From contig CATMNW010000002.1 of NCBI GenBank assembly GCA_950071875.1, positions 1 to 37,774 of the forward strand: a stretch of DNA of 37,774 nucleotides. Reading direction: 5' to 3'. The notes below the pieces were generated by a model. It saw only the letters and a list, made by a program, of their open reading frames with translations, had not been told where the DNA came from and made no database searches. Below, piece after piece: positions 7,923 to 30,502 of the stretch. The translations under genes and the position numbers were made by a program. The DNA is from an uncultured Erythrobacteraceae bacterium (lineage in GTDB: Bacteria; Pseudomonadota; Alphaproteobacteria; Sphingomonadales; Sphingomonadaceae). The first letter of the stretch is position 1; every line of letters starts with the position of its first letter.

Positions 7923-7977
7923 TGAGAATGAGATGTCCGTCCCGCCCAGCCGCTGAGACAGAGTGAGCGTCTAGAAC

Positions 7978-9112: not shown

Positions 9113-9115
9113 ATC

Positions 9116-9159: not shown

Positions 9160-9184
9160 GGACAGATTTGTCTGCACAGCCCCG

Positions 9185-11848: not shown

Positions 11849-11851
11849 GGT

Positions 11852-12184
11852 TCAAGCCTTGCTGGCGCGCTGCGCAGGGCGCGACCACGTCAGAACGTGG
11901 GAGCCGTCATCGGATGCGAACAGATTGGCGCGTATTGGCCGGGCGAATGCCGGATCGTCGATCAGCACCGCGACAAAGTCGCCGGCTTTGTCGCCGACGC
12001 GCTTCCAGCCCGCACCAATTTCGTAGACGGCGTCATTGTCACCCACCATGATCCGGTAGTCCGGCGCATTCTCGGTTTCGGACGGTTGCGCAGGTACGAG
12101 GGCGAGCCTTGTATCGAGTGTGAGCGTCTGCAAGCGCCCTTCGAAGCCATCGCGGGTCGCTGTGAATGTGCCGATATATGTCAT
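11852..12184 (-). CDS. DUF736 family protein
   Basis: 110 residues beginning MTYIGTFTATRDGFEGRLQTLTLD, the characteristic DUF736 opening, with the downstream NAPDYRIMVGD and GAGWKR blocks. The family is small, cytosolic and of unknown function, and is found next to traF and relaxase genes of alphaproteobacterial conjugative elements. AAGGAGA lies 6 bases before the ATG. The ATG overlaps the traF stop (ATGA). Confidence 0.93.
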   Translation of the reverse strand: MTYIGTFTATRDGFEGRLQTLTLDTRLALVPAQPSETENAPDYRIMVGDNDAVYEIGAGWKRVGDKAGDFVAVLIDDPAFARPIRANLFASDDGSHVLTWSRPAQRASKA

Positions 12185-12762
12185 TGATCGTCTCCTTGGT
12201 TGTTGATTGAGGTTGCGGTGATGCTTGGCTGCGCGAACCAGATATGCGCGCCGTCACCGTGCTCGTCGGTCCAGACAGGGCTGGCCCGGCCAAGCAAGTG
12301 ATCGCGCGCGATGGGTCCGAAATAGCGCCCGTCGAAGCTGCCTGACGCGCGCCGGTTCATGACGAATATCTGGCCTGCTGCGATGGTCCGGCAGCCTTGC
12401 CAGACCGGCAGAGCGCGCCCGATACTGTCTGCCGAGCGCGCCACACCGGCGCGCGCACGATTGATGGTGATGGTCAGACCCTGCCTGCAGACAGTGTCGC
12501 CGGGACGTGCCGCGATTTCCTTCAGCAGCGGAATTCCCGTCGGCAGATAACCGCGTGTCGCAAGGTAATCGCGCAGCCGAGGCGGCGGATCAATCGCCAC
12601 GCGCTCGCCAACCTGCAGACCTGCCGTACCGCGGATATGATACAGTCCCGTCGGCACGCTGGCGGTCGCATTCCAGATCAGAACGCGCGAGAGTGGCAGC
12701 ACGGCGCTGACCAATGCGGCAGCACAGACAGTGCCCGCGATGAGGACCGTTCGACGCTTCAT
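12181..12762 (-). CDS. traF: TraF-type S26 signal peptidase of the conjugation system
   Basis: 193 residues with an N-terminal membrane anchor (residues 5-28). The catalytic serine is Ser35 in NATASVPTGLYHI and the general base is Lys81 in LLKEIAARPGDTVC, the S26 Ser/Lys dyad. Further conserved FVMNRRASGSFDGRYFGP follows. In RP4, TraF matures and cyclises the TrbC pilin. Here no trbC is visible, so the substrate may be gone or lie elsewhere. It overlaps both neighbours by four bases (DUF2840 upstream, DUF736 downstream). Confidence 0.93.
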   Translation of the reverse strand: MKRRTVLIAGTVCAAALVSAVLPLSRVLIWNATASVPTGLYHIRGTAGLQVGERVAIDPPPRLRDYLATRGYLPTGIPLLKEIAARPGDTVCRQGLTITINRARAGVARSADSIGRALPVWQGCRTIAAGQIFVMNRRASGSFDGRYFGPIARDHLLGRASPVWTDEHGDGAHIWFAQPSITATSINNQGDDQ

Positions 12763-17504: not shown

Positions 17505-18161
17505 CTACAGCCAAGATATGCCGAGATGGTTCTGGCCATGCGCCAGTTCGCCTCCGAGGAACCCCTGGGCGAGAATGAGCACAGCCATCGAAGCAAGCGC
17601 AATGCGCAGCATCGTCCGGCTTTCCGGGCGGCGGTGCGCGAGCGCGGCGAGTACAACACCCAGAACGGCAATGAGCATGCCGTTCCAGCGATGGAGCTGC
17701 ATTGCCGTATCCCCGCCAAACCACAGTCCGGTGTGTATCCACCCGAATATGGCCGCAATGACGGCGCCGCCCGCACCGCCGTAAATGAGCACGCGTACCG
17801 CAGGCTCCAAGCCGGCCCCTCTTCGCTTACCGACGAAGAGCTCGGCCAGCGCGGCCATCAGAAACAGGGCAATCGGGAAATGTACCGTGGCGGGATGCAA
17901 TCTCTTGAGCACACCAACGAAGCCCTCCTCGTTCACATTGGCGGTCTCTCCCGATGCTTCGTCGTGCCCGCCGGAAGCATGAGCGTCACCCGAAGCGCCA
18001 TTCGATAGCTCCTGGGCTTCACCGGAATTGTTCACTGGACTGGCTGTCGCAGGCGCAGCTGCGCTCTCGGCCCCGCCATGCGCTTCGTCGCCATGCGCGT
18101 GGACCGGGCTGACCCAAAGAAGACTTGCGCAAACAAGCGCCAACAGTTGGATTGGCTTCAT
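17505..18161 (-). CDS. DUF2231-like membrane protein with His-rich periplasmic segment
   Basis: 218 residues. A signal-peptide-like start (QLLALVCASLLWVSPVHAHGDEAHGG) leads to a roughly 55-residue Ala/Gly/His/Glu-rich periplasmic stretch, then HPATVHFPIALFLMAALAEL, the DUF2231 hallmark, and four membrane segments. The conserved histidines (HPATVHFP, IHTGLWFG, LHRWNG) could bind heme or metal. It is first in a two-gene operon with the Met/His-tailed lipoprotein and carries one of the shared TTTGAGGGG-N15-CGTA promoters upstream. Its role in copper handling is inferred from context. Confidence 0.82.
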   Translation of the reverse strand: MKPIQLLALVCASLLWVSPVHAHGDEAHGGAESAAAPATASPVNNSGEAQELSNGASGDAHASGGHDEASGETANVNEEGFVGVLKRLHPATVHFPIALFLMAALAELFVGKRRGAGLEPAVRVLIYGGAGGAVIAAIFGWIHTGLWFGGDTAMQLHRWNGMLIAVLGVVLAALAHRRPESRTMLRIALASMAVLILAQGFLGGELAHGQNHLGISWL

Positions 18162-18209: not shown

Positions 18210-18237
18210 TACGCATCTGGAGATCTCACCCCTCAAA
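18210..18237 (-). promoter_or_regulatory. ECF-type promoter of the DUF2231/lipoprotein operon
   Basis: Minus-strand TTTGAGGGG (18237-18229), 15-base spacer, CGTA (18213-18210), about 50 bases before the ATG. The -35 box also lies in an inverted repeat (18227-18254) that may end transcription of the upstream Met/His-rich gene. Confidence 0.68.
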
Positions 18238-18374
18238 ACAGTTTTCTGAGGGTGGGCCAGCGCAGGAGTTATGCGATTTTGTGTGCTCGGGCGATTGCAC
18301 GTCTGTCCGAATTGCGACCCATTGCAGCGAGCGAAGCCCGGGGGAGCGTCAGCACCGATCCGGGCCGCCGGTTC

Positions 18375-18764
18375 CTAGTCTTGCTGCGCCATATCCTGCT
18401 GGGCAGCCATCTGCTCCATCATATCGTGCATCATCGTCATGCGCTGGTGACAGGCCGCCATCATATCGGCGTTGCCCCCCTGCATCATGCCCGCCATGTG
18501 CTCCTGCATCTTTTCGCGGTGCTCGGCCGTCAGCCTTTGGCGTTCGGCGGGATCGCTCGCGGCGCGGGCCTGCTGCATCAGCGCGCGCATTTCAGCCATC
18601 TTCTCACGATGGGCTGTCATGGCCTCGGAATCCTGCATCATGTGGCCACTGTGATCCTGCTGCTGTGCTACAGCTTGATTTGCATGGTCATGCTGCTGCT
18701 GTGCCATTACCGGGGAGGCTGTCAGGCCAGTGGCGAGCAAGAGGGCCAAGGCTGTGCGGTTCAT
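18375..18764 (-). CDS. Periplasmic Met/His/Gln-rich protein
   Basis: 129 residues from the ATG preceded by GAAGGGA. A clean signal peptide (MNRTALALLLATGLTASPVMAQ) is followed by QHDHANQAVAQQQDHSGHMM and an alpha-helical region with many Met and His residues (AEHREKMQEHMAGMMQGG, MMAACHQRMTMMHDMMEQM). The composition resembles periplasmic copper chaperones or sponges and, loosely, Spy/CpxP-type helical proteins. It is a single-gene unit with its own copy of the shared promoter. I know no firm family name. Confidence 0.78.
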   Translation of the reverse strand: MNRTALALLLATGLTASPVMAQQQHDHANQAVAQQQDHSGHMMQDSEAMTAHREKMAEMRALMQQARAASDPAERQRLTAEHREKMQEHMAGMMQGGNADMMAACHQRMTMMHDMMEQMAAQQDMAQQD

Positions 18765-18818
18765 GGTCGAATTCCCTTCTTTGGTCAGGTGGTGGATGCC
18801 TTGTGCATTCATCACCTT

Positions 18819-18846
18819 TACGCAGCGAACGTCGCTCCCCCTCAAA
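18819..18846 (-). promoter_or_regulatory. ECF-type promoter of the Met/His-rich periplasmic gene
   Basis: Minus-strand TTTGAGGGG (18846-18838), 15-base spacer, CGTA (18822-18819), about 55 bases before the ATG. The spacer and both boxes match the copA copy. Confidence 0.68.
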
Positions 18847-18961
18847 CAATCACGCAAGAGATGGTGGCGGCGAAGGGCAGGCCAACAGCCGAGCCGGTTG
18901 CAGCATTACTGATTTTCAGCCACGTTTCCGGCACAAGCCAAGAGAAAAGAAGGAGACGGTC

Positions 18962-18997
18962 ATGGTATCAGAAAAGCCGCCGGGAATGCTGCGATGA
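18962..18997 (+). CDS. Possible 11-codon leader peptide
   Basis: AAGGAGA precedes the ATG of MVSEKPPGMLR, whose TGA overlaps the ATG of the 95-aa gene (ATGA). The good ribosome binding site belongs to this short frame and not to the longer gene, so the next gene is probably translated by coupling. It could also mark a frameshifted N-terminus. Confidence 0.4.
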   Translation: MVSEKPPGMLR

Positions 18998-19281
18998 GCG
19001 CGGTCAACGAAGACGGCAGCTGGGAAGTCCCGGAACCGGACAAGGCCGAACTGGTGCAGATGCGCATTCGTCTCATAACGCTCGAAAACATCGTTCTTGG
19101 CCTGCTGTCCGGAGCGAGCAGTGAGCAGATCGAACAGATCAGAAAGCGCGCGGACATGATTGAACCGCGTCCCGAGGCGAGCAGGCACCCTCTTACCGAA
19201 CTGGCAGCAAATGACATGCGCAAATTTCTTGACCGTGCTGCTCGGCTTACCGACAACGCGGATCATGGAGAGGCTGAGTAA
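18994..19281 (+). CDS. Hypothetical protein (95 aa), helical
   Basis: MSAVNEDGSWEVPEPDKAELVQ... is predicted cytosolic, charged and largely helical, with no membrane segment. The segment LVQMRIRLITLENIVLGLLSGASSEQIEQIRKRA has coiled-coil-like heptads. The start overlaps the 11-codon leader stop. I do not recognise a family. It stands divergently to the Met/His-rich gene in the metal island, but I find no copy of the shared promoter in front of it. Confidence 0.62.
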   Translation: MSAVNEDGSWEVPEPDKAELVQMRIRLITLENIVLGLLSGASSEQIEQIRKRADMIEPRPEASRHPLTELAANDMRKFLDRAARLTDNADHGEAE

Positions 19282-19332
19282 TCCGGCAATGCAAACGCGA
19301 TCGAGGACCGAAAATGCAGGCCAGGAGCGGCT

Positions 19333-19806
19333 TTGCGATGCACATATCTGTGGAATCATGGCAAGGTGACCAGAACCCATTGGCTAGTCTATATTTGCGG
19401 CAGCTTGATCGCGTTCGTCTGGGAAATCTACCAGATGCCGTTTTTCGTTCCGGGCAATCTCGAACCCTATGAACAGACCATTCGTTGCGGCATTGCGAGC
19501 CTGGGCGATGGACTTATCCTGCTCGCAGCGTACACGCTCGCAGCCATGAAGGGCGGGCGCGCCTGGTTTCGCCAAGGCGCCAGGATATCTTATGCAATAT
19601 ACTTCGGTTTCGGCCTTGTCGTTGCAATCGCTGTCGAAATCATGGCGACGTCGCTACCGTCAGACAGCCTGCTGAGCTGGCGCTATAGCGATCTGATGCC
19701 CCATGAACCATTGACCGGCATGGCTCTGATCCCGATCGCGATGTGGACGATCGTGCCTGCGCTGACGATCCTTCTGGTTCGGTTTGCTCAAACCGAGCGC
19801 AACTGA
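19333..19806 (+). CDS. Four-helix membrane protein of unknown function
   Basis: 157 residues if started at TTG 19333, which has AGGAG 5 bases upstream; a GTG at 19366 is an alternative. Hydrophobic segments are at about 17-33, 55-70, 86-105 and 128-148. WEIYQMPFFVP in the first loop and MPHEPLTGMALIPIAMWTIVPALTILLVR at the end are distinctive, but I cannot name the family. It lies 51 bases after the 95-aa gene and runs towards the PepSY gene, with a 13-bp convergent gap. Confidence 0.68.
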   Translation: MRCTYLWNHGKVTRTHWLVYICGSLIAFVWEIYQMPFFVPGNLEPYEQTIRCGIASLGDGLILLAAYTLAAMKGGRAWFRQGARISYAIYFGFGLVVAIAVEIMATSLPSDSLLSWRYSDLMPHEPLTGMALIPIAMWTIVPALTILLVRFAQTERN

Positions 19807-19819
19807 ACTGAAAGCAGTC

Positions 19820-20554
19820 TCAACGAGCGACTTGGCCATGTCTCGCCCGGCGCTTAGTCCTCGGGAACCTGTTGGCCAGCAAGACGAAGCCCGAGATCGC
19901 GATAATTGTCCCGCCGATGCCGAACAGCAAAAGCCACCAGCTGTTGATCCGGTCGCGCTGCGTCCAGTCCATGATGTGCAGCCCCCAGATGAAATCGAAG
20001 AACCGCCACGTGTCGCTTCGCGCGGAGAGGACCGCACCGCTCGATGCATCGACATAGACGCGCGTGTTAGCCACGTCATTATAGGTGATTTGCCATGCAG
20101 GAAACGGGCCCCTGAATTCGGTGCCAACGCTTTCGTCGACCAGGCGCGCCGCATGGATGGATGTTTGCGGACCGACCCAGGCGCGCCGCGCAATTGAACG
20201 TGCCGTGGCTGCGGGAATGGGAGATAATATCCGACCGCTTTGTGGCTCATGCAGGCTCACGGCGCCATCGGTTCGCCGCACCTCAGTGACAGTCTTGCCA
20301 TCAAGAACCCGGGTCGTGATTGCGGTAATGTCATCGCTGTCGGACAGCCATCGCGGGATGGCGGCATCGTCGGGAAGCGTCTGTGCTGCGCGCGAGATGA
20401 CATGCTCGGATCGCACTTCCTCCAGATCGAGAAAGGACATCAAAGCTCCGGTGCCCATCCACAAAAGCACCTGGAGGCCGACGAAGATCGCCAGCCATTT
20501 GTGCAGCTTGCTGCCCAGGACATGCAGGCGCAGCTTGAACGAGCGTTTCGCCAC
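19820..20554 (-). CDS. PepSY domain membrane protein
   Basis: 244 residues from the GTG at 20554, which has GAGGGG about 7 bases upstream; a GTG 18 bases earlier is less favourable. Topology: an N-terminal helix (LHKWLAIFVGLQVLLWMGTGALMSFLDL), a periplasmic PepSY region (KTVTEVRRTDGAVSLHEPQSGRIL; VYVDASSGAVLSARSDTWRFFDFIWGLHIMD) and a C-terminal helix (WWLLLFGIGGTIIAISGFVLL). PepSY-TM proteins with HKW/GLHIMDW motifs are linked to metal or iron reduction at the membrane. It is last in the copA-copB operon. Direct reductase activity is unproven. Confidence 0.88.
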   Translation of the reverse strand: MAKRSFKLRLHVLGSKLHKWLAIFVGLQVLLWMGTGALMSFLDLEEVRSEHVISRAAQTLPDDAAIPRWLSDSDDITAITTRVLDGKTVTEVRRTDGAVSLHEPQSGRILSPIPAATARSIARRAWVGPQTSIHAARLVDESVGTEFRGPFPAWQITYNDVANTRVYVDASSGAVLSARSDTWRFFDFIWGLHIMDWTQRDRINSWWLLLFGIGGTIIAISGFVLLANRFPRTKRRARHGQVAR

Positions 20555-20577
20555 TCGGTTGCCCCCTCGCACTCCGA

Positions 20578-21141
20578 TCAGCGGTTGCGCGGCGCGCGCG
20601 ACGAGGAATGATATTGCACGATCTTCCAGCCATCGGCGTCATGGGCAAGTACGGATGTGGCCACGCCCTCGCGCTCGATAACCCGACCATCCGTCAGTTC
20701 GATCCGGTAGGTGTAGGTTTCGCGCCCGTAAGCGAGATGTCCCATGCGGGTGACCGCGACGGTCGGATCACCGAAGGTGAAACTTGCAATTGCATCCAGT
20801 TCGGGCCCGAGATGATGCTCCATGTAATGCGTGAAGCTACCTTCGTCCTTGCCGTTCTCGTAAACGAAAGATTCGTCGGCAAAAAGAGCGTCCATTGCGT
20901 CACCGTCGCGGGCAACCAAGGCCTCACGGTAGGCGACCAGAGCCGCTTCTGCACCGGCGACATCGTCGTTCATGGCCGCCATGTGATCGGCATGGTTCAT
21001 GCCTTGCGCCGAATGGTCCATCTCCATCGCTTCAGCTTGTTCCTGATGCGCCGAATGATCCATGGTCTGCGCCATCGCCGGTACTGCGGAAACTGCGAGG
21101 GCCGAAGCCATCAAACCTTGAATGATCATCGAATTCTTCAT
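20578..21141 (-). CDS. Periplasmic NTF2-like (SnoaL/DUF4440) protein with Met/His-rich N-terminus
   Basis: 187 residues. A signal peptide (to about AMAQ, residue 25) is followed by a roughly 35-residue Met/His/Asp-rich stretch (MDHSAHQEQAEAMEMDHSAQ) of the same MDHS type as in CopB, then an NTF2-fold domain (LVAYREALVARDGDAMDALFADESFVYENG, and the final SVLAHDADGWKIVQYHSSSR). The combination suggests a soluble periplasmic metal-binding protein in which an NTF2 domain carries a copper-binding arm. It lies between copB (15-bp gap) and the PepSY gene. Confidence 0.85.
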   Translation of the reverse strand: MKNSMIIQGLMASALAVSAVPAMAQTMDHSAHQEQAEAMEMDHSAQGMNHADHMAAMNDDVAGAEAALVAYREALVARDGDAMDALFADESFVYENGKDEGSFTHYMEHHLGPELDAIASFTFGDPTVAVTRMGHLAYGRETYTYRIELTDGRVIEREGVATSVLAHDADGWKIVQYHSSSRAPRNR

Positions 21142-21156
21142 TAGTCTTTCCTTTTT

Positions 21157-22434
21157 TTAGAACCAGAACCGGACACCGACGACATAGTTCGTCACGCTCG
21201 GGTCTTCGCCGGCCGCACGGGCATAGGCGGCACTATCGCCTATCCGCCATTCCTGAGAGACGCCGATATACGGCGCGAATTCGCGTGCGAATTCATAGCG
21301 CAGGCGAAGGCCTGCTTCGATTCGGTCGATCCCCGCGCCAACTCCCAGCTCCGGAATATCCTGAGCCGAAAGTGCAAGTTCCGCGCGCGGCTGAAGGATC
21401 AACCGCTGGGTGATGCGCTGGTCAAGTTCGCCCTCGATGCGGGCCGTCACATCGCCCTTGCTGGAAATAAACGCCGCAGCATCGACTTCGAACTTGTAAG
21501 GGGCAATACCCTGGATGCCGATCACCGCATGGGTGCGTTCAGGTCCGGTCAAGTCTTGTCGGACACCAGCCTGGAAGTCGAAAAAGGGTGCGATGGCGCG
21601 GCTCCACAGAGCCTGCACCTCGGCCCCTTCGATCGGTTCGCCGAAGCTGCCCTCGCCTTCCGATTTGAACCAGAACTTATTGATATCGCCGCCGTAATAA
21701 CCCTGAACGTCCCAAAGATAGCCGTCCGCGCCTTCGCGCGCCCGGTATTCCACGCGGTCGCCCTGTATCCATAGCCGCATGCCGCCATCGGTTTCGCGGA
21801 CCAGCTCCTGCCGGGCTTCGTTCATGGCTTCCTCGCCCCAAATTGCAATACCGGCGCGCGCGGGGCCGCTGCCAGCTTCGGGCGGAGGCGGGAGGAGCGG
21901 GATCATATCGTCGGCAGACCCTTGCATTGCGGAATGATCCATTCCCTGCATGGCTGGTGACGGCGCGGAAACCTGGCCCATCTGACTGTGGTCCATCTGG
22001 CTGTGGTCCATCTGGCTGTGGTCCATCTCGCTCTGGCTCGCCTGGCCTTGAGGCATATCGCCATGATTCATCTGGCTGTGATCCATTTCCATGGATTCCT
22101 GACCGGACTGCGCCATGGGCATCTCCATGCCCGAACTTTCTTCACCTTCGGCCATCGCCCCTTGGCTCATCTGCGAATGATCCATGGTTCCGTGATCCAT
22201 CGCCGGTTGGTCGCTGGCGGTCGGCTCGCAAGCGCCGTCCGCAACGGCATGGCCCATGTCCCGATGGCGCTGCGCTTCCTGCGCACACCTGTCCGCAGCA
22301 TCCTGGCCCGTGACCGGCTGAGCCCCGGGCTGGGGTTGACTGGTGTCATGCCCGGCATGCTGTGCCGAAGCCGGTGCCGACAGCATCGTTCCGGCAGCGA
22401 GCGAGGCAAGCAGGCTTGCTAGAAAAGTCTTCAT
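21157..22434 (-). CDS. copB: Outer-membrane copper resistance protein CopB/PcoB
   Basis: 425 residues. After the signal peptide (to about APASAQ) comes a roughly 150-residue Met/His-rich region with repeated MDHSQM units, then the conserved CopB beta-barrel domain (IWGEEAMNEARQELVRETDGGMRLWIQGDRVEY, DVQGYYGGDINKFWFKSEGEG) ending in the aromatic VGVRFWF typical of outer-membrane barrels. CopB pairs with CopA to sequester or detoxify copper in the periplasm. The start codon overlaps the copA stop (ATGA). The repeats are encoded by near-identical 15-bp units. Confidence 0.94.
   Translation of the reverse strand: MKTFLASLLASLAAGTMLSAPASAQHAGHDTSQPQPGAQPVTGQDAADRCAQEAQRHRDMGHAVADGACEPTASDQPAMDHGTMDHSQMSQGAMAEGEESSGMEMPMAQSGQESMEMDHSQMNHGDMPQGQASQSEMDHSQMDHSQMDHSQMGQVSAPSPAMQGMDHSAMQGSADDMIPLLPPPPEAGSGPARAGIAIWGEEAMNEARQELVRETDGGMRLWIQGDRVEYRAREGADGYLWDVQGYYGGDINKFWFKSEGEGSFGEPIEGAEVQALWSRAIAPFFDFQAGVRQDLTGPERTHAVIGIQGIAPYKFEVDAAAFISSKGDVTARIEGELDQRITQRLILQPRAELALSAQDIPELGVGAGIDRIEAGLRLRYEFAREFAPYIGVSQEWRIGDSAAYARAAGEDPSVTNYVVGVRFWF
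21981..22025. repeat. Three tandem 15-bp repeats coding MDHSQ units in copB
   Basis: TCTGRCTGTGGTCCA occurs three times in direct succession (21981, 21996, 22011), differing at one base, with a diverged fourth copy after it. Each unit encodes five residues of the MDHSQ metal-binding repeat, so copy number could change by slippage. Confidence 0.8.
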
Positions 22435-24248
22435 GCTTCGCTCCCGTCCGGATTGGCGACCGTGACGATCTGAAACATCCCGGCGTGCATGTGGTAAAGA
22501 AGATGACAGTGAAAGGCCCAGTCACCCGGCTCGTCGGCAGTCAGGTCGAATTGGGCGCTGCCGCCTGGCTGCAGGATTACCGTGTGCTTCAAGGGCTGGC
22601 GATCCGCAGGGGCACCATTGACCAGTTCGAAGAAATGACCGTGGAGATGGATCGGATGCGCCATCATCGTGTCGTTGATGAGCTTGACCCGTACCCGCTC
22701 GTCATAGGCAAAGCGGATCGGTTCGTCGGAGACGGCGGAAAACTTCTTGCCGTCGAACGACCACATGTAGCGCTCCATATTGCCGGTCAGATGGATTTCC
22801 ATCCGCCGGGACGGAGTTCTGCCTTCCTCGTGCGGCCTCAGCGCGCGAAGCTTGCGATAATCGAGCGTGCGATGGGGCACATCGGCAAGGCCAATGCCCG
22901 GATCGCCCATGCGATCGACCGGGTTCATCGATACCATGTCGAGGCCCGGGCCGACCTTCACGTCAGGCGGAAGGCGCGACGTATCGCGCATCTGCATGCC
23001 AGACATGCCTGCCATCCCCGCCATTGCGTCGCCGTTCGGCGCTCCGCTCGAACCATGATCCATGCCCGCCATGGCACCATCGGTTCCATGATCCATCCCT
23101 GACATGTCACCACCAGTGCCTGCACCGTGGTCCATACCGCTCATGCCCATGTCGGCCATGGTGAGCAGCGGCGGATCGCGCAGCGGAGGTATAGCTGCGC
23201 GCGCGCCGGGCCTGCTCGCCAGCGTCGCGATGCCCATGCCAGAGCGGTCCATCGACTCCGCCACCAGCGTGTAGGCCGGTTCCTCGCGCGGGGTGACGAC
23301 AACGTCGTAGGTTTCGGCGACACCGATCTGCAGCTCATCGACCTCGACCGGTTCGACATTCTGTCCATCAGCCTGAACCACTGTCATGGGTAGGCCGGGG
23401 ATGCGTATATTGAAGAAAGTCATCGCGCCGGCATTAACAAAGCGAAGGCGCACCCGCTCACCCGGCCGGAACAGATACTCCAGATTGTCCAGCGGGCCAT
23501 GGCCATTCAGAAGATAGGTATAGGCCGCGCTCGATACGTCGAGGATGTCAGTCGGCATCATGCGCATCTTCGCCCACATCCGCCGGTCCTCACCCGACAG
23601 CGGATAATCATCCGTCCAGGTGTTCTGGTTGTAGTTGAAGTAGCCTTCGCCCTTCTTGAGCTTGTCGAAGATCGCGTGCGGCGACATGTCGCTGAATTCG
23701 CTCAGCACCACGATATATTCGCGGTCGGCCTGCACCGGATCGGGACCTGCGGGATCGACCACGATCGCGCCATAGTGGCCCGCCTGTTCCTGAAGGCCGC
23801 TGTGCGAATGCCACCAGTAAGTTCCCGATTGCCGCACGGGAAATTCGGCGGTGAAGGTCTCACCCGGCTTGACGCCGGGGAAGCTCACTCCCGGAACGCC
23901 ATCGAGCTCAAATGGTACGAGAAGCCCGTGCCAGTGAATGGACGTATCTTCCTCAAGCTGGTTATGCACGTTTAGCCGGACCGTCGTTCCTTCCTGCAGG
24001 CGCAGGAGAGGTCCTGGAATACTGCCATTGACAGCGATCGCGCCGCCGCGCCTGTTGCCGCTTGCGAAGGCGGACCGGGCTACGGTGAGGTCGATATTCG
24101 GCCCCGCCACCTCGTCCAGTCCCTTACGGGCATTTCCCGCCAGGAGGTCACCGCCGCGCGCCCAGGCCGGCATTGCTCCGGCAAGGCCAAGCAGGCCCAT
24201 CCCGCCTGCTCCCGTACCAAGGAATTTGCGTCGATTTACGGAAATCAT
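22431..24248 (-). CDS. copA: Multicopper oxidase CopA/PcoA (Tat-exported)
   Basis: 605 residues from the ATG with AGGAG 9 bases upstream; an ATG 24 bases earlier is possible. A twin-arginine signal (NRRKFLGTGAGG) directs folded export. Copper ligands are visible as HWHG (residues 105-108), HSHSG (147-151), and C-terminal HPIHLHG and HCHLLYHMHAGM, covering the type 1, 2 and 3 sites. A Met-rich insert (MSGMDHGAGTGGDMSGMDHG and on) is typical of copper-resistance CopA and probably binds Cu(I). It oxidises Cu(I) in the periplasm. The promoter-like motif TTTGAGGGG-N15-CGTA lies 36-63 bases upstream. Confidence 0.96.
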   Translation of the reverse strand: MISVNRRKFLGTGAGGMGLLGLAGAMPAWARGGDLLAGNARKGLDEVAGPNIDLTVARSAFASGNRRGGAIAVNGSIPGPLLRLQEGTTVRLNVHNQLEEDTSIHWHGLLVPFELDGVPGVSFPGVKPGETFTAEFPVRQSGTYWWHSHSGLQEQAGHYGAIVVDPAGPDPVQADREYIVVLSEFSDMSPHAIFDKLKKGEGYFNYNQNTWTDDYPLSGEDRRMWAKMRMMPTDILDVSSAAYTYLLNGHGPLDNLEYLFRPGERVRLRFVNAGAMTFFNIRIPGLPMTVVQADGQNVEPVEVDELQIGVAETYDVVVTPREEPAYTLVAESMDRSGMGIATLASRPGARAAIPPLRDPPLLTMADMGMSGMDHGAGTGGDMSGMDHGTDGAMAGMDHGSSGAPNGDAMAGMAGMSGMQMRDTSRLPPDVKVGPGLDMVSMNPVDRMGDPGIGLADVPHRTLDYRKLRALRPHEEGRTPSRRMEIHLTGNMERYMWSFDGKKFSAVSDEPIRFAYDERVRVKLINDTMMAHPIHLHGHFFELVNGAPADRQPLKHTVILQPGGSAQFDLTADEPGDWAFHCHLLYHMHAGMFQIVTVANPDGSEA

Positions 24249-24283
24249 TGAATGCGGCTCCTGATGTGACATACACCCACCCT

Positions 24284-24311
24284 TACGCGCCTGTCAGCTG
24301 TACCCCTCAAA
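24284..24311 (-). promoter_or_regulatory. ECF-type promoter of copA
   Basis: Minus-strand TTTGAGGGG (24311-24303), 15-base spacer, CGTA (24287-24284). The -35 box overlaps the last codons of the sigma gene, where it encodes Phe-Glu-Gly, so copA can be transcribed separately from the sigma operon. Confidence 0.72.
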
Positions 24312-24869
24312 GTTTTTGACCCGTTCTCTCAGCCGGTTGCGCGCACGATATATGCGCGTCTCGATCGCCTTCTCGGTCGTGCCGAGCAACGCGGCGGCTT
24401 CGGCCTGGCTTCGGCCTTCGACACTTACGAGCACAAGCGCTTCGCGCAGGCGTATGGGCAACCGCCCGATCTCCGCCTCGACGAGCCTGAGTTGCTCACG
24501 GCTCGCTGCAAGGTTTTCGGGATCGGGCGTGTCGTCGGCCACCGCCTGTACCTCGTCGGAACTCGGAAAACCGAAGAAACCGACGACCTTCCTTCGGCGA
24601 AGTCGGTCGCGACACCGGTTCAGGACAATTGTTGTAAGATAAGGGCCGACGGGCTTGGAGGCATCGAGACGATGCCGGGTGAGCCAGACCGATGCGAGGC
24701 TATCCTGGACCACGTCCTGAGCGGAGGAGGAAGACCCCAGCATGCGCGTCGCCAGCGCAATCAGCCGCGCGATGTGGGCTTCGACAAGAGACGAAAACGC
24801 CTGCCTGCTGCCGGCCACGACCTGCGCGACAAGTATTTGTTCTGAATTGCCCCCCTTTTTTACCGGCAT
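24294..24869 (-). CDS. ECF RNA polymerase sigma factor (CnrH-like)
   Basis: 191 residues with sigma region 2 (RLIALATRMLGSSSSAQDVVQDSLASVWL) and region 4 (LPIRLREALVLVSVEGRSQAEAAALLGTTEKAIETRIYRARNRLRERVK) and no region 3, i.e. an ECF factor. It follows a small membrane protein and a CnrX-like sensor, the CnrY-X-H order, and precedes copA. I infer that it is held by the membrane anti-sigma candidate, is released on metal stress and transcribes the units carrying TTTGAGGGG-N15-CGTA. The ribosome binding site at the ATG is weak, so it may depend on translation of the upstream gene, whose stop is 6 bases away. Confidence 0.93.
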   Translation of the reverse strand: MPVKKGGNSEQILVAQVVAGSRQAFSSLVEAHIARLIALATRMLGSSSSAQDVVQDSLASVWLTRHRLDASKPVGPYLTTIVLNRCRDRLRRRKVVGFFGFPSSDEVQAVADDTPDPENLAASREQLRLVEAEIGRLPIRLREALVLVSVEGRSQAEAAALLGTTEKAIETRIYRARNRLRERVKNFEGYS

Positions 24870-24875
24870 GCGGGG

Positions 24876-25310
24876 TCAGCTGCGCGGGCTGTCGGTGAGA
24901 GCTTTGGACACTTGCTGGTCAAATCGTCTTTGCTGATCGGGGTCGAGAATTTCACGCATGTCGAAGACATGGCGGACCGTTGCTTTTTGGAGATCGCCCA
25001 TGCGTGCATGAACCTCGTCGATGGCCGCCCCCACCCTGGGTCCGTATTCGTGTTCGGCTTCCATCGCCTGCGCGAGTTGGGCGTTGGCAGCGCGCGCAGA
25101 GGCCTCGAGCCTGGCCCGTTCCACAGCGAAGCGCGCTTCGAGTGCCTCAAGGCGTTGCTTCTGCTCGTTGGTTAGCGTGAGTTCATCATGCACGAACGCA
25201 TGCAGGCCCGTATCAGCATCGTGATTGGCCCAGCGATCCGCGCCGAGCGCACCGAGACTACCGGCGAGCGCCGCGAGCAGCACCGCGAGGGCAATATGCA
25301 ATTTCTTCAA
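24876..25310 (-). CDS. CnrX-like periplasmic heavy-metal sensor
   Basis: 144 residues, starting at a TTG that has GGAG 9 bases upstream. One N-terminal membrane anchor (residues 5-24) precedes a helical periplasmic domain of the Spy/CpxP/CnrX superfamily (LTLTNEQKQRLEALEARF; LDPDQQRRFDQQVSKAL). His37-x3-His41, Glu58, His114 and Met118 reproduce the spacing of the CnrX metal ligands as I recall them (His42, His46, Glu63, His119, Met123). It should sense metal in the periplasm and signal to the small membrane protein encoded 3 bases upstream. Which metal it senses is not shown by the sequence; the surrounding genes suggest copper. Confidence 0.88.
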   Translation of the reverse strand: MKKLHIALAVLLAALAGSLGALGADRWANHDADTGLHAFVHDELTLTNEQKQRLEALEARFAVERARLEASARAANAQLAQAMEAEHEYGPRVGAAIDEVHARMGDLQKATVRHVFDMREILDPDQQRRFDQQVSKALTDSPRS

Positions 25311-25313
25311 TGT

Positions 25314-25610
25314 CTAGCGCTCCACATGCAGCAGCTCGGAGGGCGAGAGCCGCTCTCCGACAATGATGCTATCTGCTATGCCAGGTTGGGAACCAGCAAA
25401 TTGTGCAGGCCACCCGCTGGTGCCTGCACCGGCTCCCAGGCCGACGACGAACAGGCCCGCGAACAAGGCCATCCTGCGGCGTCTTTCAACGATTTCGCCA
25501 AGCTGGCCTGCCCGTTGCCACACGCCGGTCATGAAATCGTCCGGAACTTTGAAGGAGTCCTGTGTGCCCAGCGTCCCAAGCATCGCATCGAGTGTCTGAT
25601 TGTTACGCAT
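25314..25610 (-). CDS. Small single-pass membrane protein, CnrY-like anti-sigma candidate
   Basis: 98 residues: about 47 cytosolic residues (DSFKVPDDFMTGVWQRAGQLGEIVERRRRM), one membrane helix (ALFAGLFVVGLGAGAGTSGW) and a 30-residue periplasmic tail. Length, topology and gene order match CnrY, which captures its sigma factor with a short cytosolic peptide and contacts CnrX in the periplasm. Sequence similarity to CnrY is not obvious by eye, as is common for these short proteins. AGGAG lies 6 bases before the ATG. It is first gene of the sigma operon and has a diverged copy of the promoter motif upstream. Confidence 0.72.
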   Translation of the reverse strand: MRNNQTLDAMLGTLGTQDSFKVPDDFMTGVWQRAGQLGEIVERRRRMALFAGLFVVGLGAGAGTSGWPAQFAGSQPGIADSIIVGERLSPSELLHVER

Positions 25611-25640
25611 CCATTGCTCCTGTCGGTTGCCCGCTTCCTA

Positions 25641-25670
25641 TACGCGATAGAATACCCGAACCCTTAAGTT
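25641..25670 (-). promoter_or_regulatory. Diverged ECF-type promoter of the sigma operon
   Basis: Minus-strand AACTTAAGGG (25670-25661), 16-base spacer, CGTA (25644-25641). It keeps the GGG and CGTA cores of the shared motif but has TTAAGGG in place of TTGAGGG and one extra spacer base. If real, the sigma factor regulates itself weakly. Confidence 0.5.
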
Positions 25671-25675
25671 TCTTT

Positions 25676-25703
25676 TTTGAGGGCTGCGGCCCGGCTGTGC
25701 GTA
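25676..25703 (+). promoter_or_regulatory. ECF-type promoter of the methyltransferase/DUF411/DUF5676 operon
   Basis: TTTGAGGGC (25676-25684), 15-base spacer, CGTA (25700-25703), about 30 bases before the first start codon. It stands back-to-back with the sigma operon promoter, the two -35 boxes being 8 bases apart. Confidence 0.68.
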
Positions 25704-25732
25704 TCAGAACGTGCAACGAACAATAGCGAAGG

Positions 25733-26440
25733 TTGTTTGAACAGATCGGAAATTATGTGGTGAAAAATGCACGCCTCACAAAAGTGGAACGGGAGTTCAC
25801 TCCTCTGCTTGGCCACAGCTGGCTCACACCGCTCTACGATCGTGCGATTGGCGTTTTCACGCGCGAGGCGAAATGGCGCCGGGAGATCGTCAAACAGGCT
25901 CGAGTAAAACCTGGCGACAAGGTCATGGATGTAGGTTGCGGCACGGGGACGTTGTTGCGAGCCTTCATGACCAGCTGCCCCCAAGCAGATTTATTAGGCG
26001 TAGAACCCGATCCGGCAGCGCTTGCGATCGCACGGCGCAAGCTTGGTCCTGCTGCGGGCCTCGTTCGATGGCACAACGGATTTCTCGACAGTCTCGACCT
26101 TTCGGGTGATCGGCGACCCGATACGATCGTCAGCTCGCTTGTTTTGCACCAGGTTCCCGTGTCGCAGAAGCGCGCGATCCTCGAGCAAATGGAGGCCTTG
26201 CTAGCTCCTGGCGGCATGGTGCTGATCGCTGATTACATGCGCCAGGACCATCCGCTCATGCGCGCAATGTTCCGCGCGACCGTTCAGCTTCTCGACGGTT
26301 TACCAGACACCCAGCCGAGCGCTGACGGAGCAGTCGAGAAATTGCTAGGCGAAATTTTCGCAAGCGCAGAGCTGCTCGCTCAGATCCATACCGCAACCGG
26401 AACCATTTCGCTCTGGCGCGGCTCCAAGAAAGGCATGTAA
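25733..26440 (+). CDS. Class I SAM-dependent methyltransferase
   Basis: 235 residues from TTG 25733. Start uncertain: GTGs at 25757 and 25760 are alternatives and none has a strong ribosome binding site. Motif I VMDVGCGTGTLLRAF binds SAM, followed by LLGVEPDPAALAIARRKL and the post-motif DTIVSSLVLHQVPVSQKRAILEQMEALLAPGGMVLIADY, as in UbiE/ArsM-like enzymes. The substrate is unknown. It leads a three-gene operon with two metal-linked small proteins under the shared promoter, so a link to metal detoxification is plausible but inferred. Confidence 0.88.
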   Translation: MFEQIGNYVVKNARLTKVEREFTPLLGHSWLTPLYDRAIGVFTREAKWRREIVKQARVKPGDKVMDVGCGTGTLLRAFMTSCPQADLLGVEPDPAALAIARRKLGPAAGLVRWHNGFLDSLDLSGDRRPDTIVSSLVLHQVPVSQKRAILEQMEALLAPGGMVLIADYMRQDHPLMRAMFRATVQLLDGLPDTQPSADGAVEKLLGEIFASAELLAQIHTATGTISLWRGSKKGM

Positions 26441-26441
26441 C

Positions 26442-26909
26442 ATGATCAAAGACAATCCATCGAAGCCGCTGCGGCGTTCGCTGACGGCATCGGTTCTTCT
26501 CACGCTTGCGGCCTGCTCGAATGCCGCACAGGCCGCCACCTACACGATGTTCAGGGACCCGGGATGTGGTTGCTGCCTGAGCTGGGCAGGACATGTCGAG
26601 GGCGGCATGGAAGCAGAAGTGGCTTCGGTCGATACTGACGATATGAGTGCGCTCAAGGCAGCCAAGGGCGTACCGCAGGATATGTGGTCGTGCCACACAA
26701 TGGAAGTCGAGGGCTACATCATCGAAGGTCATGTGCCCGCCGAAGCGATCGCGCGGCTCCTGCGCGAAAGGCCCGAGGGCGTGACCGGCCTCGCCGTTCC
26801 CGGAATGCCGCTAGGCTCCCCCGGCATGGAAATGGGCGATCGAGTGCAGCCCTATGAGGTCATCGCTTTCGGTCCGGACGGCCAGAAAGTCTTCGCATCC
26901 TATCCGTAA
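26442..26909 (+). CDS. DUF411 metal-binding protein
   Basis: 155 residues, exported: a hydrophobic signal with an LAAC lipobox-like site (Cys25) and an alternative AQA/A cleavage. The DUF411 core is intact: YTMFRDPGCGCCLSWAGHV, DMWSCHTMEVEGYIIEGHVPAEAIARLL, then VTGLAVPGMPLGSPGMEMG. The GCGCC, CH and Met clusters are probable Cu(I) ligands; family members occur in copper resistance clusters. It begins one base after the methyltransferase stop codon. Confidence 0.93.
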   Translation: MIKDNPSKPLRRSLTASVLLTLAACSNAAQAATYTMFRDPGCGCCLSWAGHVEGGMEAEVASVDTDDMSALKAAKGVPQDMWSCHTMEVEGYIIEGHVPAEAIARLLRERPEGVTGLAVPGMPLGSPGMEMGDRVQPYEVIAFGPDGQKVFASYP

Positions 26910-26950
26910 ACGCCGACCAGCCCAGATGACGGTAATTCAACAGGAGAACC

Positions 26951-27214
26951 ATGATGTCAGAGCGTTCGCTCAAATCCTCGATCATCGCCTGGGGCTGGAC
27001 ACTCAGCCTGTTTCTGCTCGTCAGCTATTTGATCTGCATAGCTTTCGGCCTGCTCGCGCCCGAACGGTTCCATATGCATGAGGCCTGGGAACCGCTGCTT
27101 CCCGGATACGAATGGCTGACTCTGCCTGGATTTCTCGCAGGCGCAATCGGCAGCTTCTTATATGGGTGGTACATCGCGGTGATCGTGGTGCCGTTATACC
27201 GGTACTTCAGATAA
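26951..27214 (+). CDS. DUF5676 family small membrane protein
   Basis: 87 residues with two membrane helices (LFLLVSYLICIAFGLL; LPGFLAGAIGSFLYGWYIAVIVVPLYRYF) joined by a loop with HMHEAWEPLLPGYEWLT. This matches the DUF5676 pattern, a small inner-membrane family often next to copper and silver resistance genes. AGGAG precedes the tandem ATGs. It closes the methyltransferase/DUF411 operon; function unknown. Confidence 0.85.
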   Translation: MMSERSLKSSIIAWGWTLSLFLLVSYLICIAFGLLAPERFHMHEAWEPLLPGYEWLTLPGFLAGAIGSFLYGWYIAVIVVPLYRYFR

Positions 27215-27385
27215 CGCTTGAGGAAATCAGACTGGCTTGAAACGGCGCTCTATCGATCGGAACAAGCACTTGGTTCCACGCGGGTGTCGGATGCGACAAA
27301 AGAAGGCTGGCGACACCAATCAGAATGACGCCTCGACAGGAGACGAACAATTTCGCGATATCGATCCAGCGACGATAGACGGGGT
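27209..27385 (-). pseudogene. Possible inverted N-terminal fragment of a membrane protein
   Basis: Read on the minus strand this gap gives 57 open codons, YRRWIDIAKLFVSCRGVILIGVASLLLSHP and TPAWNQVLVPIDRAPFQASLIS, ending in TGA. It looks like a genuine membrane-protein N-terminus but has no ATG or GTG start or ribosome binding site in place. The adjacent + strand AlbA_2 gene starts abruptly in the middle of a hydrophobic helix. A short inversion that detached this protein's first ~55 codons would explain both facts. This is a hypothesis. Confidence 0.35.
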
Positions 27386-27415
27386 CTGCTCCTGCACACC
27401 GCCATAGGCGCAGTC

Positions 27416-28162
27416 ATGGGTTTCGCGATCCTTCATCCGGTGACGACACTTGTCTACTGGTATGAATTCGGTGCCTCGAATATTGCCGCCCAAAGCAACG
27501 CGCTCGCTTTTCTGCTTGACCGTCTGTCTTCGGCATTCGCGTTTGAAATGCTAACGATGAGCGCTGTGTATGTGGCGTTGGGCGCTGCGATCGGGCTGGG
27601 GTTTGGTATTTATCACAGCCGCCTTTTGGATGAACGCTCGAAAGTTCGTTTCCTCGAACGCGAGCTTGAAGAAGAGCTACCTTTGCTCATTGCCCGGGGC
27701 GAAGGAGAGCATGTCGAGTTCAAGTCGTCTATGCGTTGGGACAGACGCGAAGAGCGCGTAAACCGGCGCCTGCAGCAGGTTGTCGTGAAGACAATAGCGG
27801 GTTTTCTCAACCATGAAGGTGGCACGCTCTTGATCGGCGTGGAAGATGACGGGACTGTTGCGGGCATTGAAGCGGATATGCGAACGCTCAAGCACGCGAA
27901 CCAGGATGGATTCGAACGACTTTTGATGGACACTGCAAGAGACGCCCTGGGCGGGGATGCTTGTGCCCTGGTCCATAGTCGTTTCCATGGGCTTGGCGGG
28001 CTGACCGTTTGCAGGGTGATCGTCGAGAAAAGCGTGCATCCGGTCTACTACACCGAAGGGGGTGTCGCTCATCTCATGCTGCGCACCGGAAACAGTACCC
28101 GGGAGCTGGATGTTCGCGAAGCTCAGGCGCACCTTCAACGAAGAGAAGCCGGGCCGATGTAA
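27416..28162 (+). CDS. Membrane-tethered AlbA_2 (Schlafen-type) putative ATP-binding protein
   Basis: 248 residues from ATG 27416. The open frame extends back to 27329 with hydrophobic RGLLLHTAIGAV, so the true start may be earlier. Two membrane segments (about 1-15 and 40-67) and a charged coiled linker (RSKVRFLERELEEEL) lead to an AlbA_2 domain: EHVEFKSSMRWD, KTIAGFLNHEGGTLLIGVEDDGTVAGIEAD, HPVYYTEGGVAHLMLRTGNSTREL. AlbA_2/Schlafen domains bind nucleotides or nucleic acid. A membrane-anchored form in a copper island is unusual; function unknown. No shared promoter motif is seen. Confidence 0.85.
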   Translation: MGFAILHPVTTLVYWYEFGASNIAAQSNALAFLLDRLSSAFAFEMLTMSAVYVALGAAIGLGFGIYHSRLLDERSKVRFLERELEEELPLLIARGEGEHVEFKSSMRWDRREERVNRRLQQVVVKTIAGFLNHEGGTLLIGVEDDGTVAGIEADMRTLKHANQDGFERLLMDTARDALGGDACALVHSRFHGLGGLTVCRVIVEKSVHPVYYTEGGVAHLMLRTGNSTRELDVREAQAHLQRREAGPM

Positions 28163-28208
28163 CTATAACCCGGTCGCACACAGGCGCCTGGAGTCTCGCA
28201 GAATCTTT

Positions 28209-28236
28209 TTTGAGGGGTGAAGCCCTGCCGAACGTA
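28209..28236 (+). promoter_or_regulatory. ECF-type promoter of the APC permease operon
   Basis: TTTGAGGGG (28209-28217), 15-base spacer, CGTA (28233-28236), about 50 bases before the start codon. It shares CTTTTTTGAGGG with the methyltransferase promoter. Confidence 0.7.
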
Positions 28237-28287: not shown

Positions 28288-29640
28288 TTGCAAGACCATG
28301 GTCACGATCGAACGGGCAATACCGCAGGCTCCATAACGCTGCTGGGCGGCATCGCCATGGGCACCGGCGTTATGATCGGTGCAGGCATCTTCGCACTCAC
28401 CGGGCAGATCGCCGAACTTGCCGGCCCCCTCTTTCCGCTATCCTTTATCGCCGGGGCGCTGGTCACTTCATTGTCGGCCCACAGCTACATCAAGATGTCG
28501 AACAAATGGCCGTCTTCGGGCGGCATCGCGATGATTTTGCAAAAAGCATACGGGCCCGGCGTCATCGCCGCATCAGCCTCGCTGCTGATGGCGCTGTCTA
28601 TGGTCATCAACGAAAGTCTCGTGGCAAGGACCTTCGCAACATATGCGCTGCGTCCGTTCGATCTCGAGAGCAGCGGATGGCTCGTTTCTCTGGTAGCGCT
28701 CGCTCTCATTATCTTTGCCTATTTCGTCAATGCAGCGGGCAACAAGTCGGTTAGCGGGTTTTCACTTATCATGTCGGCGATCAAGATCGGCGGCATTGCG
28801 CTATTTGCAGTAGCTGCGATCTGGGTGAGCGGTTTTTCATCAGGAGCATTCTCGCAGCCTGTAGCGCTGACCAACGCAGAAGCCCTGGTCGCCTCGGTTG
28901 CCTTTTCGATTCTCGCTTTCAAGGGCTTTACCACGATCACCAATAGTGGCGGCGAAATCGTCGATCCGCACAAGAATGTAGGCCGCACGATCATGATCTC
29001 GATTGGCATCTGCATCGTGGTCTATCTGCTCGTCGCTGTTGCGGTGGGCTCAAGCCTCAGCATCTCCGAGATTATCGAAGCACGCGATTATTCACTGGCG
29101 GCGGCGGCGCGCCCGGCACTTGGCGATCTCGGTTTCTATTTCACCGTCGCGATCGCGATCGCTGCCACCACGTCGGGCGTCATCGCGAGTGTTTTTGCGG
29201 TGTCGCGGATGCTGACGATGCTGACCGATATGAAGATGATCCCGCATAGCCATTTCGGCATGAGCGGCGGGATCCGCAGCCACATGCTGGTCTATACGGT
29301 TGTCGTTGCCGGAACGCTGGCCGTATTGTTCGATCTTTCCCGTATCGCATCGCTGGGCGCCTTCTTCTATCTCGTCATGGACATGCTGGTTCACTGGGGC
29401 GTCCTGCGCCACCTGCGCGGAAAAGTCGGCGCACGCGCCTCGGTGCTTCTCGCTGCACTCGCAGCCGATGGCGTGGTCCTGGCAGCTTTCACTGTCGCGA
29501 AATTGCGCAGCGATCCTGCCGTCGTGGCCTACGCCGTGATCGGGATCGCCGCCGTTTTTCTTGGCCAATGGTTCTACCTCTCGCGCAATCCCGGCGCACC
29601 AGCATCGCCCGAGAACGATGGAACGGGAGAGGCGAGTTGA
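28288..29640 (+). CDS. APC-family amino acid/polyamine permease
   Basis: 450 residues starting at TTG with AGGGGAA 5 bases upstream. Eleven to twelve membrane helices; the first has GIAMGTGVMIGAGIFALTGQ, the APC substrate-binding signature, and the sixth region has SVAFSILAFKGFTTITNSGGEIVDPHKNVGRTI. APC permeases carry amino acids or amines. It heads an operon with a glutaredoxin-MauE protein, an ion channel, DUF305 and a lipoprotein, driven by the shared promoter, so it appears to be induced with the copper genes. Substrate unknown; import of a thiol precursor such as cysteine would fit, but this is inference. Confidence 0.9.
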   Translation: MQDHGHDRTGNTAGSITLLGGIAMGTGVMIGAGIFALTGQIAELAGPLFPLSFIAGALVTSLSAHSYIKMSNKWPSSGGIAMILQKAYGPGVIAASASLLMALSMVINESLVARTFATYALRPFDLESSGWLVSLVALALIIFAYFVNAAGNKSVSGFSLIMSAIKIGGIALFAVAAIWVSGFSSGAFSQPVALTNAEALVASVAFSILAFKGFTTITNSGGEIVDPHKNVGRTIMISIGICIVVYLLVAVAVGSSLSISEIIEARDYSLAAAARPALGDLGFYFTVAIAIAATTSGVIASVFAVSRMLTMLTDMKMIPHSHFGMSGGIRSHMLVYTVVVAGTLAVLFDLSRIASLGAFFYLVMDMLVHWGVLRHLRGKVGARASVLLAALAADGVVLAAFTVAKLRSDPAVVAYAVIGIAAVFLGQWFYLSRNPGAPASPENDGTGEAS

Positions 29641-29642
29641 CC

Positions 29643-29756
29643 ATGCACTTCCTTTCCAGGTGGGAAGCTCTCGAGGCGGGCTCCACTGCACAACCGTGCC
29701 CGGCTTGCGCATTGCCCAGTAGCGCCATCACGAAAAACAAACGGAGCGAATTATGA
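29643..29756 (+). CDS. Possible 37-aa peptide with a CPAC motif
   Basis: The frame begins 2 bases after the permease stop and its TGA overlaps the ATG of the glutaredoxin-MauE gene (ATGA). It carries QPCPACALP, a CxxC pair suitable for metal or disulfide chemistry. GAGAGG lies about 10 bases upstream. It fills the whole gap between two operon genes, but it is too short to be sure. Confidence 0.35.
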   Translation: MHFLSRWEALEAGSTAQPCPACALPSSAITKNKRSEL

Positions 29757-30502
29757 CGACCCGAACAGCGACGGTTTACCGCATGGTGATGGAGGATCAC
29801 GTTTGCCCCTATGGTCTCAAGACGATCGATCTCCTCAAGCGACAGGGATTCGAGATCGACGACAATCACCTGACAAGCAGGGAAGAGACCGACGCGTTTA
29901 AAGACAAGCACGAGGTCGAGACCACGCCCCAAACCTTTATCGAAGACAGGCGCATCGGTGGCTATGACGATGTGCGCGAATTCTTCGGCAAGAGCCGCTC
30001 GCAGCCCAAGGAGGGCGAAACCAGTTATCAGCCGGTCATCGCGATTTTCGCGGTGGCGCTGCTGCTCGCGCTCGGGCTGAGCTGGGCGTTCTTCGACAAT
30101 CTCTTTACCGTGCGCGCGGCAGAATGGTTCGTGAGCCTGTCGATGACCTTGCTGGCTGTCCAGAAGCTGCAAGACGTGCGCAGCTTCTCGACCATGTTCC
30201 TCAACTACGATCTGCTGGCCAAACGCTGGGTCCCCTATGGCTTCGTCTATCCGTTCGGTGAAGCCGCCGCAGGTATTCTCATGACCGCTGGCGCACTGAC
30301 CTGGCTTTCTGCTCCGCTAGCACTGTTTATCGGGACTATCGGCGCTGTCAGCGTATTCAAGGCGGTCTATATCGATAAGCGCGAGCTCAAATGCGCCTGC
30401 GTCGGTGGCAGCAGCAACGTGCCGCTTGGCTTCGTCTCATTGACCGAGAACATGTTCATGATGGGCATGGGTCTGTGGATGGGCGCAAAGGTCTTCCTAT
30501 GA
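29753..30502 (+). CDS. Glutaredoxin-MauE (DoxX-like) fusion membrane protein
   Basis: 249 residues. Residues 1-80 form a glutaredoxin domain with a monothiol-type site CPYG (HVCPYGLKT), and conserved TTPQTFIEDRRIGGYDDVREFF. Residues 95-249 form a four-helix MauE/DoxX-like membrane domain (FVSLSMTLLAVQKLQDVRSF; WVPYGFVYPFGEAAAGILMTAGAL) with a C-terminal CACVGGSSNVPLG. The pair resembles a membrane thiol-redox relay. CGGAG lies 6 bases before the ATG. Its stop overlaps the channel gene. Confidence 0.88.
   Translation: MTTRTATVYRMVMEDHVCPYGLKTIDLLKRQGFEIDDNHLTSREETDAFKDKHEVETTPQTFIEDRRIGGYDDVREFFGKSRSQPKEGETSYQPVIAIFAVALLLALGLSWAFFDNLFTVRAAEWFVSLSMTLLAVQKLQDVRSFSTMFLNYDLLAKRWVPYGFVYPFGEAAAGILMTAGALTWLSAPLALFIGTIGAVSVFKAVYIDKRELKCACVGGSSNVPLGFVSLTENMFMMGMGLWMGAKVFL

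Follow-up and report, generated by a model that had tools for sequence, protein, structure and literature searches.

The three genes Y, X, and H, which are encoded in 25610–24294 on the minus strand of the window (the whole 37,774-nucleotide stretch of DNA that was analysed, from an uncultured Erythrobacteraceae bacterium), probably constitute a CnrYXH-type switch that is dedicated to periplasmic copper and turns on transcription of Y-X-H itself, of copA, and of a divergently oriented operon. The locus is a copper-resistance variant of known CnrYXH-type signalling and is common in public genomes. The genes, the fold and ligands of the sensor, the promoter elements with their restriction to the cluster, and the conservation of the arrangement are computed results. 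The original prediction of a CnrYXH-like unit wired to copAB is borne out by the gene order, by the homology of X and H, and by a CnrH-like promoter before copA.

As Table 1 shows, the small one-helix protein, the periplasmic sensor, and the ECF sigma factor are all found in the proposed order, separated by gaps of a few bases, and a multicopper oxidase and CopB directly follow, as had been claimed. The SnoaL/NTF2-like gene that comes after copB is the next gene in many relatives too. Considering that the predicted copA promoter would start transcription at ~24275, the ATG at 24248, which stands after an AGGAG, is the likelier copA start than 24272. The promoter elements span 18210 to 28236, so that the system extends well past 24294–25610. 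One of them precedes the gene of the Met/His-rich protein, which gave no match in a Pfam scan and is a candidate periplasmic copper-binding protein.

Table 1. Genes and predicted promoters of the copper cluster (window coordinates)
Feature	Position	Strand	Basis or remark
Y, 98 aa, presumed anti-sigma factor	25314..25610	-	sequence, low-confidence model
X, 144 aa, TTG start, CnrX-type membrane-anchored periplasmic sensor	24876..25310	-	PF13801, PDB matches, model
H, 191 aa, ECF sigma factor	24294..24869	-	nearest solved structure is CnrH
copA, periplasmic multicopper oxidase	22431..24272	-	TIGR01480, 777.8 bits
copB, copper resistance protein B	21157..22434	-	PF05275, E 2.2e-85
SnoaL/NTF2-like exported protein	20578..21141	-	PF13474
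PepSY membrane protein	19820..20572	-	PF03929, PF03413
Met/His-rich exported protein, 129 aa	18375..18764	-	sequence
DUF2231 membrane protein	17505..18161	-	PF09990
SAM methyltransferase, divergent operon gene 1	25733..26440	+	PF08242
DUF411 protein	26442..26909	+	PF04214
APC-family permease	28288..29640	+	PF13520
Glutaredoxin/MauE fusion protein	29753..30502	+	PF07291, PF00462
Predicted H-dependent Y-X-H promoter, TAAGGG-N15-GCGTA, weaker copy	25641..25666	-	predicted start ~25632
Predicted H-dependent divergent promoter, TGAGGG-N15-GCGTA	25678..25703	+	back-to-back with Y promoter; predicted start ~25712
Predicted H-dependent copA promoter, overlaps H end	24284..24309	-	predicted start ~24275
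Predicted H-dependent promoter of Met/His-rich protein	18819..18844	-	motif
Predicted H-dependent promoter of DUF2231 gene	18210..18235	-	motif
Predicted H-dependent promoter before APC-family permease	28211..28236	+	TTTGAGGG-N16-CGTA exact; ACGTA replaces GCGTA

Conjugation genes adjoin the copper cluster at 4785–12762 of the window (a PF02534 coupling protein, a DUF3363/relaxase protein, a transglycosylase, and an S26 peptidase), and beside them, 3251–4210 encodes a protein of 319 aa that combines a nucleotidyltransferase domain (PF18765) with a HEPN domain. Near-identical copies of X are found in several genera. The copper cluster is therefore probably part of a mobile element.

X matches PF13801 (Metal_resist, E 4e-18) and also the LTXXQ family, and its best solved relative is NccX (4clv, 1.8e-18), followed by the CnrX entries (1.8e-16 and weaker). 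The AlphaFold model has a mean pLDDT of 78.1 and helices at 36–43, 48–86, 91–121, and 124–139. Alignment with the CnrX and NccX structures, proposed as a check on the assignment, was carried out and gives Z 13.2 with NccX (3.4 Å over 136 residues) and Z 11.8 with CnrX (1.8 Å over 110 residues). X has the four-helix fold, the N-terminal anchor, and the His/His/Glu/His/Met ligands of a CnrX-type sensor. The five residues that had been named as ligands, H37, H41, E58, H114, and M118, are present at these positions and are invariant across 13 aligned sensors including CnrX; on account of this invariance, a chance spacing of the ligands was rejected. The predicted shift in numbering agrees with the structural alignment, in which X is offset from CnrX by +5 at the C-terminal end (model residue 141 is chain residue 146), and Glu58 and Met118 of X correspond to the positions altered in the CnrX mutant entries E63Q, M123A, and M123C. 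Extra residues in X are H87, H101, and M104.

The residue comparison comprised 104 distinct X sequences, of which 71 are copA-linked, 5 are cnr-linked, 15 have neither downstream, and 13 come from stretches that are too short; X stretches spanning fewer than ~100 model positions were excluded from the X alignment. Among the copA-linked sensors, H41, E58, and H114 occur in 71/71 and H37 and M118 in 70/71, the exception (L116) having Asp for H37 and Ile for M118. The five ligands are also retained in 5/5 cnr-linked sensors. Fixed differences nevertheless separate the copA-linked from the cnr-linked sensors, the latter represented by five distinct sequences only, at L44/V, Q50/E, H101/E, M104/A, Q126/H, and F130/Y, and they uphold the earlier suggestion of a distinct branch of the family. 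His101 and Met104 are thus found in all 71 distinct copA-linked sequences, where the cnr-linked ones have Glu and Ala, and His87 is found in 61/71 and 0/5, respectively. Since CnrX is said to have one methionine only, according to the title of a reference cited in PMC7689651, the invariant Met of the copA-linked sensors is an addition. Counted along the helix, His101 and Met104 lie more than two turns away from H114 and M118; they may serve in copper binding, in the dimer, or in contact with Y. In a set of divergent X relatives (L178–L184), most of the five ligands are gone, as is His101; one of these (L181) retains the Y-X-H layout, and inspection by eye shows no copper genes around it. These ligand-poor relatives are possibly a metal-free branch of the same switch.

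Y consists of an N-terminal segment, one hydrophobic helix at ~47–65, and a C-terminal PxxLL tail that is invariant among 13 Y proteins including CnrY. The model of Y is of low confidence (mean pLDDT 58.7), with helices at 2–15 and 26–62. Searches of Pfam, NCBIfam, and the PDB gave no match for this short, divergent protein, which is 13% identical to CnrY, and a profile comparison of the two found no detectable homology (probability 0.1%). The proposed likeness to CnrY therefore stands for position, the single hydrophobic helix, and the shared PxxLL tail, features on which Y is presumed to be CnrY-like, but not at the level of the profiles. For H, the nearest solved structure is CnrH (4cxf, 8.8e-27), and the second among the solved structures is SigW (8.4e-14).

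The regions upstream of Y hold a symmetrical element made up of two back-to-back TGAGGG-N15-GCGTA promoters. The predicted consensus, (TT)TGAGGG-N15-GCGTA, matches the CnrH promoter except that its spacer is shorter by one base. The cnrY and cnrC start sites mapped in PMC9045368 fall 11–12 bases past the C of CGTATA, which marks the element as being of the CnrH promoter type, and the start sites in the window (~25632, 24275, and 25712) were predicted by transferring this distance. Such sequences precede both Y and the first output gene, and the one before copA is positioned as cnrCp is in the cnr locus. Considering that copA has this separate element, expression of copA solely by read-through from Y was rejected. 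The divergent predicted promoter points to the methyltransferase/DUF411 operon.

The pattern TGAGGGN{14,16}GCGTA, read from the regions upstream of Y and then searched assembly-wide, has 4 matches in the 2.66 Mb assembly, all with N15 and all in the window (reversed control, 2); these are the divergent, copA, Met/His-rich, and DUF2231 sites. Allowing up to one mismatch, the window contains 6 matches to the N15 form versus 0.60 expected in shuffles. The form TTTGAGGG-N16-CGTA was refined after inspecting the window's own sites, so that its count is confirmatory only: it has 5 exact matches in the assembly, all in the window, one before copA, one before the divergent operon, and one before each of three more genes of the cluster. 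With one mismatch there are 5 more outside the window (reversed control, 8 in all). Because the assembly is 75.9% complete, H sites outside it may be missing.

The element is also seen well beyond this genome. Across the 71 distinct copA-linked loci, AGGG-N16-CGTA occurs upstream of Y in 61 and between H and copA in 67, and a divergent copy is present in 53; other spacers (10–15 and 17–23) give 0 to 6 matches. The five cnr-linked loci show the spacer N17 (in 2 and 3 of 5), and no divergent copy was found in them. The genomes of 99 relatives contain 140 exact matches to the promoter motif: in the 39 X-positive genomes, 82 lie within 10 kb of X (~0.18 expected) and 28 elsewhere, and the 60 X-negative genomes account for 30. 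Matches per genome within the genus average 2.92 versus 0.65 (Mann–Whitney p ~1e-7, with genomes treated as unrelated). No exact match was found near X in the X-positive genomes G005, G021, G026, G035, and G072.

A search of GTDB genomes with X yielded 57 loci, which judging by their titles are all from sphingomonads except one labelled Henriciella. The order Y-X-H-copA is present in 57/57, and copB in 55/57, the remaining two stretches ending early. This conservation shows that the arrangement is not due to chance, and a one-off fusion was rejected on the same ground. X was found in 39/99 genomes of relatives, in 92/199 genomes of the sphingomonad family to which genome G446 belongs, and in 17/398 genomes sampled across the phylum, and it is annotated in public genomes mostly as "periplasmic heavy metal sensor". 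A TIGR01480 copA lies within 1.5 kb of X at 25 of the 26 loci compared. In the genus, 62 copA genes were detected, 37 of them without linkage to X; Y-X-H is therefore one of several routes of copA control there.

Plasmid records matching X number 79. Six were inspected, with pMOL28 (cnrYXHCBAT) as the control: L089, L091, L092, and L094 carry annotated Y-X-H-copAB, and L090 has Y, X, H, and CopB, its CopA being located by tblastn. On the sixth, a Caulobacter plasmid (L093), a type II restriction endonuclease gene sits between H and the copA match. In a further set of 20 regions taken from 23 X matches, copA is downstream in 15, copAB is otherwise nearby in 2, cnrCBA is present in 2, and 1 has neither. 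Two of the 15 sensors with neither copA nor cnr downstream have copAB upstream or divergent (L126 and L129). By eye, L189, L190, L185, and L194 adjoin apparent CopC/CopD, P-type ATPase, or efflux-adaptor genes, and L181 and L183 do not.

In this sample, the cnrCBA-linked X is the rarer form. Sensors close to CnrX occur in 1/369 genomes of the class of G352 and in 5/150 of its family. The cnr-linked sensors form one clade (SH-aLRT 100), which in a quick tree is nested among the copA-linked sensors with SH-aLRT 92, but p-AU is 0.414 and the branch is long, and the nesting was dropped for these reasons. The idea that copAB stand here instead of a Ni/Co efflux system is thus right as to what follows H, whereas the direction that it implies may run either way, given this p-AU and the commoner linkage to copA. 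We consider it rather doubtful that copper sensing is the main, possibly older role of the whole alphaproteobacterial family, with His101-x-x-Met104 as a second copper-type pair that sets specificity, and with Ni/Co CnrYXH as an offshoot that lost the pair and gained a 17-base spacer on joining an RND pump. At the contig start of G446:C1, two oppositely oriented X genes with identical sequences stand ~1 kb apart (L120, L121, and L140); the genome also has other copA-linked and cnr-linked copies.

In the CnrYXH system, the classic example of such a switch, metal sensing by X in the periplasm frees the sigma factor, the metals reported being Co(II) and Ni(II) (PMC7689651). By analogy, contact of Y with H, contact of X with Y, and release by metal would operate here as follows. 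Without metal, membrane-bound Y would hold H via its cytoplasmic N-terminal part, and X would rest on the periplasmic tail of Y. Upon a rise in periplasmic copper, X would bind the metal at H37, H41, E58, and H114 and recruit M118, and the altered contact of copper-bound X with Y would release H. The freed H would take RNA polymerase to the (TT)TGAGGG-N15-GCGTA promoters, which would drive Y-X-H, copA (hence copB and the following genes), and the methyltransferase/DUF411 operon. By motif, H may also drive three further cluster genes.

On the basis of genomic context, copper is the most likely inducer. The five-ligand set does not single out this metal, since CnrX also binds copper in the crystal (title of entry 3epv), and a broader metal response is the chief rival, considering that copper-bound crystal and that nickel raised CopA, CopB, and CopC in Sphingobium sp. 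ba1 (PMC5557971, where the portion available to us does not mention a sigma factor). X would then sense several metals (Ni/Co/Cu/Zn), in nature chiefly one other than copper, and copAB would be one among the outputs of an all-purpose alarm for metal in the periplasm. That X shares all five ligands with CnrX, which has been crystallised with Ni, Co, Zn, and Cu according to the entry titles, speaks for such a sensor. However, its immediate output is copA and copB, the other predicted H promoters are all in the same cluster, the fixed residues differ between cnr-linked and copA-linked X, and the presence of both kinds in G446 suggests a division of labour; we therefore judge the multi-metal alarm unlikely. 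It is very improbable that X works chiefly as a periplasmic chaperone of the Spy/CpxP/ZraP kind or as a buffer for metal, with H answering envelope stress caused by copper rather than copper: X does match the LTXXQ family and the Spy/CpxP structures at Z about 7–8, and there are ligand-less relatives in the Y-X-H layout that do not belong to any obvious copper cluster (L181), but CnrX and NccX outscore Spy/CpxP (Z 10.9–13.2) and the five ligands are retained in nearly all copA-linked X.

The locus can be compared with several known systems. With CnrYXH of Cupriavidus metallidurans pMOL28 (cnrYXHCBAT) it shares the gene order, the X fold, the five ligands, the relationship of H, and promoters before Y and the first output gene with their AGGG and CGTA elements. 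It differs in its output (copAB and copper genes versus cnrCBA), in the promoter spacer (16 versus 17), in having a divergent promoter, in H101/M104 of X (Glu/Ala in the CnrYXH sensor), and in the low identity of Y to CnrY. A cnr/ncc nickel–cobalt determinant in the strict sense has cnrCBA or nccCBA next, where the window has copAB. Likewise, NccX of the nickel–cobalt–cadmium system is the best match of X in both sequence and structure, but no ncc efflux genes follow X in the window. The genome paper of Erythrobacter ani WH131 lists nccX beside copper genes (PMC9283347), and the X locus of this strain (L034) is Y-X-H-copAB; we infer that its "nccX" is this X.

Two other ECF systems respond to copper. 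In SigAb-AabA of Acinetobacter baumannii, the ECF sigma factor is stimulated by copper and its anti-sigma factor has been modelled on the pattern of CnrY, but the anti-sigma genes lie downstream, the metal genes are an indirect regulon, and CnrX is unmentioned in the portion of the report consulted (PMC12153292). CorE of Myxococcus xanthus is a copper-dependent ECF sigma factor that controls a multicopper oxidase gene, and it works without an anti-sigma factor, sensing copper itself through a Cys-rich extension of its C-terminus (PMC10141476). The sequence of H has a single Cys and lacks the CorE-type CxC motif and Cys-rich C-terminus. Two-component control of copAB by CopRS, PcoRS, or CusRS resembles the present system in its output genes and in periplasmic copper sensing, and these regulators belong to other protein families than Y-X-H. 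The portions of the open-licence literature that we consulted yielded no description of copAB under the control of a CnrYXH unit.

Should copper be the signal of this branch, nature would have swapped the specificity of a single fold at the cost of a handful of fixed differences (L44, Q50, H101, M104, Q126, and F130), and metal selectivity would for that reason be directly testable. The compact promoter set is a possible part for a copper biosensor. Labels such as "nccX" or "nickel-cobalt-cadmium" on such genes would, if the reading is correct, mislead surveys of metal resistance, and an ECF route to the control of copAB would be common among sphingomonads.
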